Source: Sphingobacterium haloxyli (lineage in GTDB: Bacteria > Bacteroidota > Bacteroidia > Sphingobacteriales > Sphingobacteriaceae). Taken from it: 64,000 bases of DNA. The notes beneath the pieces were generated by a model that saw only the letters and a program-made list of their open reading frames with translations, had not been told where the DNA came from and ran no database searches. Both the position numbers and the translations under genes were made by a program. The first letter of the stretch is position 1; the number at the start of each line of letters is the position of its first letter. This document shows, piece after piece, positions 18,871-26,384 of the stretch. Location: NCBI RefSeq assembly GCF_002980525.1, contig NZ_PVBQ01000014.1:1-64000 (forward strand), written 5' to 3'.

Positions 18871-19245
18871 TTAAAAAGGTAAATCGTCATCATCCGCTCC
18901 GGAGGACGCTATATCGACAGGAGGCATATCCATTTGACCTGGCGCTTGAGCCTGTTGTGGCGTGTTGGCAAGCTTTGTTACTCTCCACGCTACCAATGAA
19001 TTGAAATAGGTAGTAACACCTTCTTTATTTGTCCATGGACGACCGCGTAGGTTAAACGACACTTCTATATCATCGCCAACGGCCAAGTTATCAAATATAC
19101 TAACGCGATCTTGCGTTGCCTCAAAACGAATGTATTCTACAAATTGTGGGTTTTCTGCGTAAGCAACAATTAGATCTCTTTTTTTGAAAGATTCAGTAAC
19201 TTGTTGCGTAGCGCCTATCTCATGAACTTTTCCTCTTATTTCCAT
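18871..19245 (-). CDS. DUF3127 protein with an SSB-like acidic C-terminal tail
   Basis: A 124-residue protein of the Bacteroidota DUF3127 family, recognised from MEIRGKVHEIGATQQVTESFKKRDLIVAYAENPQ and DDIEVSFNLRGRPWTNKEGVTTYFNSL. The pattern of five strands is compatible with an OB fold like that of single-stranded DNA-binding protein. After a Pro/Gln/Ala-rich linker the protein ends in DDDDLPF. This is almost identical to the SSB C-terminal tail that recruits DNA-repair proteins, and to the GLPF end of the SSB encoded at 25938-26384. Function is unproven; an auxiliary ssDNA- or nucleic-acid-binding protein is the best inference. Confidence 0.88.
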   Translation of the reverse strand: MEIRGKVHEIGATQQVTESFKKRDLIVAYAENPQFVEYIRFEATQDRVSIFDNLAVGDDIEVSFNLRGRPWTNKEGVTTYFNSLVAWRVTKLANTPQQAQAPGQMDMPPVDIASSGADDDDLPF

Positions 19246-24720: not shown

Positions 24721-24784
24721 TATTTTACATATTTTAACATTTTTTAGGACTCTTTTTATTATAAAAAAATAGGCAACTTTGTGC

Positions 24785-25861
24785 ATGTCATTCGCTGTAA
24801 AATTAATGAATTGGTACCGTGAGAAAGGGCGTGATCTGCCTTGGAGAACCACGCATGACGCTTATATTATCTGGCTTTCGGAGATTATCTTACAACAGAC
24901 TAGAGTGGAGCAGGGAATGCCCTATTTCCACCGTTTTGTAGAGGCATTTCCAATTGTAACAAAATTTGCGCAAGCCGATGAAGAAGATATCCTACGGTTA
25001 TGGCAAGGTTTAGGGTACTACTCGCGCGCCAGAAACATGCATAAAGCAGCCAAAATGGTCATGAGTGATTTTCAGGGCACGTTTCCGAATACCTATGGGG
25101 AAGCTATTCGTTTGCCCGGCGTTGGAGAATATACGGCAGCGGCCATCGCGTCTTTTTCGGCAAATGAACCACGGGCGGTAGTCGACGGAAACGTATATAG
25201 GGTATTGGCCCGCTACTTTGGGATAAACGAACCGATTAATTCCATACAAGGGAAAAGAATATTTGCCGAGATTGCCCACGACATGCTTGATAAGCGTAAT
25301 CCCGGCATATACAATCAGGCCATTATGGATTTTGGAGCGTTGCAATGCAAACCTAAAAACCCGCTATGTGAGGATTGTATTTTTCGTGTGGAATGTGTCG
25401 CGTTTCAAAAAGGATTAGTCGATATGCTACCTGTGAAGTTAAAAGGGAAAGTAAGCCGCAATAGATATTTCCATTACTTTATCGTAAAGGAGGACGACAA
25501 GATTTTGATGTCAAAACGAGGACAAGGCGATGTATGGACAAACCTTTATGAATTTCCAATGATAGAGACAGCGGAGGACATTTCCTTGTCCGATTTAATG
25601 GCACATGCAGATTTTGTCCACTATTTTGATGAGAATACGGTTTTAGAGGTCGTAGGCAAGCAGATAAAACAAGTACTAAGCCATCAAAACATTTATGCAC
25701 GTTTTTTTATCATTCGCGATTCCCGTGCTTTGAAAAAGAAAAAAAAGGACTGGAATTACTATTTTTGTGAAAAAATCGATAAATTAGCTAAGCATAAACT
25801 TATATTCTCTTTTCTGGAAAAAAATGTCCATCTCATCTCCGCTAATACTAGCGTGAAATAA
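24785..25861 (+). CDS. mutY: Adenine DNA glycosylase MutY
   Basis: Removes adenine mispaired with 8-oxoguanine. The 358-residue protein has the N-terminal WYREKGRDLPWR, the WLSEIILQQTRVEQG segment with the catalytic Glu, and the helix-hairpin-helix LPGVGEYTAAAIASFS followed by VVDGNVYRVLARYFG (catalytic Asp). The four-Cys iron-sulfur motif (C-x6-C-x2-C-x5-C in CKPKNPLCEDCIFRVEC) and a C-terminal NUDIX-like recognition domain follow. The ATG at 24785 is chosen because it matches the family N-terminus; an in-frame TTG two codons earlier is not needed. A CAACTTTG -7-like box ends only three bases before the ATG. Confidence 0.96.
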   Translation: MSFAVKLMNWYREKGRDLPWRTTHDAYIIWLSEIILQQTRVEQGMPYFHRFVEAFPIVTKFAQADEEDILRLWQGLGYYSRARNMHKAAKMVMSDFQGTFPNTYGEAIRLPGVGEYTAAAIASFSANEPRAVVDGNVYRVLARYFGINEPINSIQGKRIFAEIAHDMLDKRNPGIYNQAIMDFGALQCKPKNPLCEDCIFRVECVAFQKGLVDMLPVKLKGKVSRNRYFHYFIVKEDDKILMSKRGQGDVWTNLYEFPMIETAEDISLSDLMAHADFVHYFDENTVLEVVGKQIKQVLSHQNIYARFFIIRDSRALKKKKKDWNYYFCEKIDKLAKHKLIFSFLEKNVHLISANTSVK

Positions 25862-25937
25862 TAAATGTTCATTCTGACTATAGAGTATAATAATTTATTA
25901 CAACAAGATACAGTTGATTAGCCCTAAATTATAAATT

Positions 25938-26384
25938 ATGGCAAGTGTTAATAAAGTGATTTTAGTCGGGCATTTGGGAAAAGATCCCGAAGTGCGGTAT
26001 TTAGACAACAATGTCTCCGTTTGTAGTTTTCCTTTTGCAACTTCTGAAACCTACACTAAAGACGGTGTACGGGTCCAACATACCGAATGGCACAATATTG
26101 TCATGTGGCGTAATCTAGCGGAAATGGCAGTTAAATATCTTCAAAAGGGGAAGTTGGCTTATATTGAAGGAAGGTTGCGAACCCGAAATTATGAGGATAA
26201 AGAAGGCACACGTAGGTATGTGACAGAGATCGTGGGCGAGAGTTTTAAGTTATTAGGACGTCCCTCTGATTTTGGACCAACGGGAAGATCTACATCGCAG
26301 GAAGAAGAAAAAAACGATGGTGGAAAAGACGAAGAGGTCGATTTTACAGAGAACAACGACGATGCAGATGGCTTGCCTTTTTAG
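25938..26384 (+). CDS. ssb: Single-stranded DNA-binding protein
   Basis: Binds and protects single-stranded DNA in replication and repair. The 148-residue protein has the OB fold core: VNKVILVGHLGKDPEVRYLDNN, TEWHNIVMWRNLAEMAVKYLQKGKLAYIEGRLRTRNYED and VTEIVGESFKLLGR. An acidic, disordered linker follows, and the C-terminal tail ADGLPF is the protein-recruitment tip. The length is normal. It follows mutY by 76 bases on the same strand. Confidence 0.96.
   Translation: MASVNKVILVGHLGKDPEVRYLDNNVSVCSFPFATSETYTKDGVRVQHTEWHNIVMWRNLAEMAVKYLQKGKLAYIEGRLRTRNYEDKEGTRRYVTEIVGESFKLLGRPSDFGPTGRSTSQEEEKNDGGKDEEVDFTENNDDADGLPF

Follow-up and report, generated by a model that had tools for sequence, protein, structure and literature searches.

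A DUF3127 protein of Bacteroidota chromosomes and phages with a predicted SSB/PriB-like OB fold and a conserved SSB-type C-terminal tip

The single-stranded DNA-binding protein (SSB) and its C-terminal tip organise replication, repair and recombination. The competence protein SsbB belongs, like the main bacterial SSB, to the PF00436 family, and PriB, an OB-fold protein derived from SSB, ends with its OB domain and is not known to carry an SSB tip. In the excerpted text of PMC10164576, the terminal Phe of the SSB tip is placed in a hydrophobic pocket, its alpha-carboxyl in a basic lip and the Asp residues on a basic ridge. Trp-88 of E. coli SSB is listed among the base-stacking residues in the excerpt of PMC3991886. 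Among phages of Bacteroidota, the PHROGs family phrog_4932 is named as a single strand DNA binding protein, and RefSeq labels the related proteins of phages 11b, P12024L and Muminvirus as SSB; plasmid members are still labelled ‘DUF3127 domain-containing protein’. The description of the family as uncharacterised in the initial annotation thus holds for its chromosomal members, for which no paper was found in the open-licence literature, but not for the phage members. The phage reading stays close to existing annotation.

The stretch of DNA analysed (64,000 nt of a Sphingobacterium haloxyli contig; hereafter, the window) contains the only DUF3127 gene of this genome (Table 1). Its product matched PF11325 over residues 2–89 with 85.5 bits, above the curated Pfam cut-off of 27 bits, and its best PHROGs match was phrog_4932, over the full length (1–124). 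The general SSB family phrog_44 also matched it (5.2e-10). Neither PF00436 (curated cut-off, 26 bits) nor any NCBIfam model matched it at E ≤ 10. PF11325 is therefore a family separate from, and beyond, the SSB model of Pfam. The protein resembles bacterial SSBs (PF00436; E. coli Ssb, Salinibacter SSB 5odn) in its OB fold, the aromatic residue at the Trp-88 position, the disordered linker and the acidic Pro-Phe tip, but it falls below the Pfam SSB cut-off and outside the NCBIfam SSB models, has a somewhat shorter OB domain and, compared by eye with SSBs of the same phylum, lacks their N-terminal ‘LIGNLGKDPE’ and ‘TEWHN’ stretches. It belongs to the same family as the phrog_4932 proteins; these are, however, phage-encoded and lie beside recombination genes, whereas the gene in the window is chromosomal, single-copy and outside such a cluster. 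SsbB, too, accompanies the main SSB as a further protein of this kind (PMC3128108), but DUF3127 forms a separate and far more divergent family.

Table 1. Features of the DUF3127 gene, and the canonical SSB gene used for comparison, in the window
Feature	Position	Strand	Evidence
DUF3127 gene (SSB-like protein, 124 aa, ATG start)	18871..19245	-	PF11325, 3e-24; phrog_4932 (SSB), 2.1e-27
Predicted OB-fold domain, residues 1-92	18970..19245	-	AlphaFold2 model; PDB matches to SSB/PriB
Flexible, unconserved linker, residues 93-117	18895..18969	-	pLDDT <50 over 95-119; low column conservation
SSB-type acidic C-terminal tip DDDDLPF, residues 118-124	18874..18894	-	P123/F124 invariant; 252/264 relatives PF-ending
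Canonical SSB, 148 aa, ends NNDDADGLPF (comparison; not part of the DUF3127 gene)	25938..26384	+	PF00436, 5.4e-34

The C-terminal ends of the DUF3127 protein and of the genuine SSB of the window were as first annotated: the former finishes in SGADDDDLPF after a linker that is predicted to be disordered, and the latter in DDADGLPF. These are exactly the two PF-ending genes among the 59 of the window, and no PF ending occurs in the 369 genes that surround DUF3127 at 38 other loci of Bacteroidota (genes called simply as longest ORFs of at least 100 aa). The ending is present in 252 of 264 DUF3127 relatives, 248 of them with [LVIM]PF. In the set from chromosomes, phages and plasmids (n = 185), 178 proteins end in [LVIM]PF, four in PF after another residue and three in neither; in the viral-contig set (n = 79, from 80 loci, L253 being left out as it offered no usable ORF), 70 end in [LVIM]PF and nine have no PF. 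PF endings form the majority in 59 of the 65 clusters made at 70% domain identity. Acidic residues number 3.6 on average, and basic ones 0.13, in the six positions that precede the final tripeptide, and a variable Pro/Ala/Ser linker precedes the tip. P123 and F124 are the sole invariant columns of a 33-sequence alignment covering the phylum and its phages. The commonest residue of a column accounts on average for a fraction of 0.49 in the core, against 0.25 in the linker and 0.78 over the last seven positions. A tail arisen by chance is ruled out by the contrast between the relatives (252/264) and the background genes (0/369). The conservation on which the SSB-like reading depended (182/185 plus 70/79) was thus found, and the tail is real and under selection. 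A flexible linker followed by an acidic Pro-Phe tip, conserved throughout the family, is the arrangement that defines the SSB C-terminus.

The 12 relatives without a final PF include both DUF3127 proteins of family f13 (L135, L139), which keep an acidic end; the SSBs of four f13 genomes (L189, L191, L192, L212) retain a DDLPF end. One Hymenobacter plasmid copy (L184) has lost the tail, and the nine viral copies are either truncated or altered. An unrelated-looking protein near another DUF3127 copy (L302:2791-3165, +) ends in QLPF and is perhaps another mimic of the SSB tip. The S. haloxyli genome encodes two PF00436 SSBs, that of the window and a second one on another contig (G000:C8:138161-138463; L187:1489-1887, +). 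The latter ends in DTDHLP, without the final Phe, so that the DUF3127 tip is more canonical than that of this SSB paralogue. In another genome (L210, G369), the tail of the PF00436 SSB ends in DDELLY in place of Pro-Phe. The canonical ssb of the window directly follows an ORF (24779-26384 for the pair) that we take, from its sequence, to encode a MutY-like adenine glycosylase. RecO, a known SSB partner, is also encoded in this genome.

The AlphaFold2 monomer model, built on a 55-sequence alignment, predicted strands at residues 2–10, 21–32 and 35–44, a helix at 45–51, and strands at 59–72 and 78–91. Ten-residue block means of pLDDT over residues 1–90 were 85–92. The model shows the five-stranded barrel, with a helix between strands 3 and 4, of the SSB/PriB group of OB folds, which bears out the earlier suggestion that the strand pattern of DUF3127 fits an OB fold. 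In a Foldseek search of the PDB, 169 matches were obtained at E ≤ 0.001, and those listed, the best 50, were all SSBs (mitochondrial ones included) or PriBs, with a best E of 1e-6; TMq values were moderate (0.49–0.59), the disordered tail counting in the length. The top VIA-align match was the Salinibacter SSB (5odn_D; Z 12.1, rmsd 2.6 over 91 residues). In an alignment with E. coli SSB (1eqq), W71 falls on the Trp of ‘RTRKW’ and therefore corresponds to the Trp-88 position; position 71 is aromatic in 32 of 33 alignment rows (counted by eye). K22, R69 and W87 are conserved basic or aromatic core positions. An OB fold in common with SSB is not in itself proof of ssDNA binding.

A link to SSB was also seen at the level of sequence profiles. 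Comparison of DUF3127 with Bacteroidota SSBs by hhalign gave 97% with the tail included and 90.7% (score 38.3) with the domains alone; 200 column shuffles reached at most 21.8, and a reversed control gave 0.1%. With a shallower alignment (A3), the domain-only comparison dropped to 18.5%, and its score of 23.4 was close to the highest shuffle in the A1 control, so the strength of the link depends on alignment depth. Direct sequence matches of DUF3127 to SSBs of the PDB were weak (best, 0.056 and 0.052). A few DUF3127 relatives matched PF00436, all below threshold; one of them (G290:C87) matched PF11325 at 6e-25 and PF00436 at 9.3e-4. The profiles indicate a distant homology between DUF3127 and SSB for which the tail is not needed. 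Gp25 of Pantoea phage AAS23, said in the excerpted text of PMC8004638 to hold both DUF3127 and SSB domains, was considered as a two-domain bridge and rejected: it matched DUF3127 at E 0.07 only and PF00436 not at all. With so weak a Pfam match it may represent a further divergent SSB family. Called an SSB, gp25 (L300:12300-12746, -) ends in FDDDIPF and adjoins genes for exonuclease VIII and a recombinase.

Of the 392 Bacteroidota genomes drawn, 218 contain PF11325, nearly always as one copy. It was present in 102 of 105 genomes of the class to which the window belongs (counted among the genomes listed, those of the same class being taken to come first, with 154 further entries without a match) and in 116 of the 287 from the rest of the phylum. 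In phages, tblastn detected DUF3127 in 97 of 50,697 records (60 of the 97 matches were listed); the names of 95 refer to Bacteroidota hosts and the other two read ‘Bacteriophage’. In plasmids it was detected in two of 72,556, and one scan of viral contigs yielded 554 relatives. Host and viral copies were intermixed in a quick tree, read for this mixing alone, with at least three changes forced by supported branches and 11 as the fewest. The core was highly divergent between the two clades of the family. That the gene in the window belongs to a mobile element is rejected on its single copy and its presence in 102 of the 105 genomes counted for the class. In genome G077, the DUF3127 gene (L307:4893-5240, -; G077:C4) was split over two incomplete matches, which would fit a frameshift or a sequencing error.

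The phage copies lie among recombination genes. Erf, a YqaJ exonuclease, DUF3127 and a primase are found together in phage P12024L; Erf is near DUF3127 in phage 11b, NinG in Gundel_1, and NinG plus a primase/helicase in Muminvirus filifjonk. The 135 neighbours scanned (of 188 selected) on 28 viral contigs included six ERF, three RecT and four NinG matches to Pfam, and three NinB/Orf matches to PHROGs. Second copies in bacterial genomes (L055, L057, L079, L302, L305 and L306) lie in prophage-like stretches with genes for annealing proteins, exonucleases or helicases/primases: ERF, exonuclease VIII-like and DnaQ-like genes adjoin the second copy of S. deserti (L055), a Rad52-like gene that of L302, and an exonuclease gene and an AAA_24 ATPase gene that of L079. 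The AAA_24 phage ATPases are presumably Sak4-type annealing proteins. The putative annealing protein of L306 had no family match. A separate PF00436 gene was found in none of eight named records (six phages, two plasmids) and was absent from 21 of 22 longer viral contigs, which may be fragments; a second PF00436 match in the viral contigs falls inside the DUF3127 ORF itself (G404). Since P12024L is common to both sets, a separate canonical SSB is present in one of 29 distinct records, a figure that covers DUF3127-bearing records and is no measure of mutual exclusion between SSB and DUF3127 in phages (the phage SSB search listed 60 of 2316 records).

On chromosomes, DUF3127 stands among unrelated genes, and the copy in the window lies outside any recombination cluster. 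In Sphingobacteriaceae, a divergent methyltransferase-like gene was beside DUF3127 in all four loci examined, and in Flavobacteriaceae the conserved neighbours were other genes of translation and metabolism (Aat-, GreA- and HIT-like, by eye). Membership of a replication operon was rejected, no replication cluster being found among the clustered neighbours of 42 chromosomal loci (two unplaceable). A link to natural transformation was also discarded; the excerpted text of a Riemerella transposon screen (PMC8459023) names no DUF3127 gene.

DUF3127 is probably a divergent OB protein of the SSB/PriB group that binds ssDNA, recruits SSB partners and serves phages as their own SSB. The earlier proposal of a second SSB-like protein gains support from the conserved tail, the predicted OB fold and the tail-independent profile link. 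The main competing explanation, a PriB-like part of the primosome acting with PriA in replication restart rather than in coating, seems unlikely. PriB shares the SSB-derived OB fold (Z about 11), VIA-align gives its chains scores as high as those of SSB (3klw_B, Z 11.5; 1woc_C, Z 11.4), and the OB domain of DUF3127 is short, as in PriB. Yet the SSB tip, which PriB is not known to have, is the most conserved part of DUF3127, and the phage copies adjoin annealing proteins and exonucleases. That same neighbourhood of DNA recombination in phages and prophages argues against an RNA-binding OB protein, whose acidic end would autoregulate RNA binding or make some other contact and would resemble the SSB tip by convergence; in Flavobacteriaceae the chromosomal gene does have neighbours from translation and metabolism, but the invariance of the terminal Pro-Phe fits the binding rule for SSB C-termini (excerpt of PMC10164576), and this explanation is improbable. 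Still less credence is given to a decoy that would coat no DNA and would display the tip so as to titrate SSB partners or regulate them. In its favour are a tip more conserved than the OB core and a core highly divergent between the two clades, but the core keeps K22, R69, W87 and the aromatic residue at position 71, and phages carry DUF3127 in place of a canonical SSB.

Under the favoured SSB-like reading, the OB barrel would bind and coat ssDNA, and the flexible linker would join it to the SSB-type tip. The terminal Pro-Phe and the preceding acidic residues would then dock SSB partners such as RecO, PriA and RecQ, and recombination or repair would have in DUF3127 a second platform of the SSB kind. 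In phages of Bacteroidota, where it is encoded next to annealing proteins and exonucleases, it would be the phage's own SSB. The gene, its predicted fold, the conserved tail, the distant homology to SSB and the phage gene neighbourhood are what the analysis shows; we infer ssDNA binding, partner binding, the oligomeric state and the exact chromosomal role. Recombination or repair, for which RecO is present, is our first choice for the role of the chromosomal copy beside SSB, because every informative neighbourhood is one of recombination.

These results amount to the clean assignment of a DUF, not to a system of a new type, and would provide a name and a mechanism for a family annotated as a ‘domain of unknown function’. 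The family also offers candidate SSBs for phage-based recombineering in Bacteroidota. We lean, with modest confidence, towards the broader view that most Bacteroidia possess in DUF3127 a second, deeply divergent core gene of the SSB clan, sharing the partner network of SSB through the same tip, and that its phage branch supplies recombination modules of the Erf/RecT/Rad52/Sak4 type with their resident SSB. If a second tip-bearing protein is indeed present across the phylum, studies of SSB partners in Bacteroidota would have missed a competitor or a helper.
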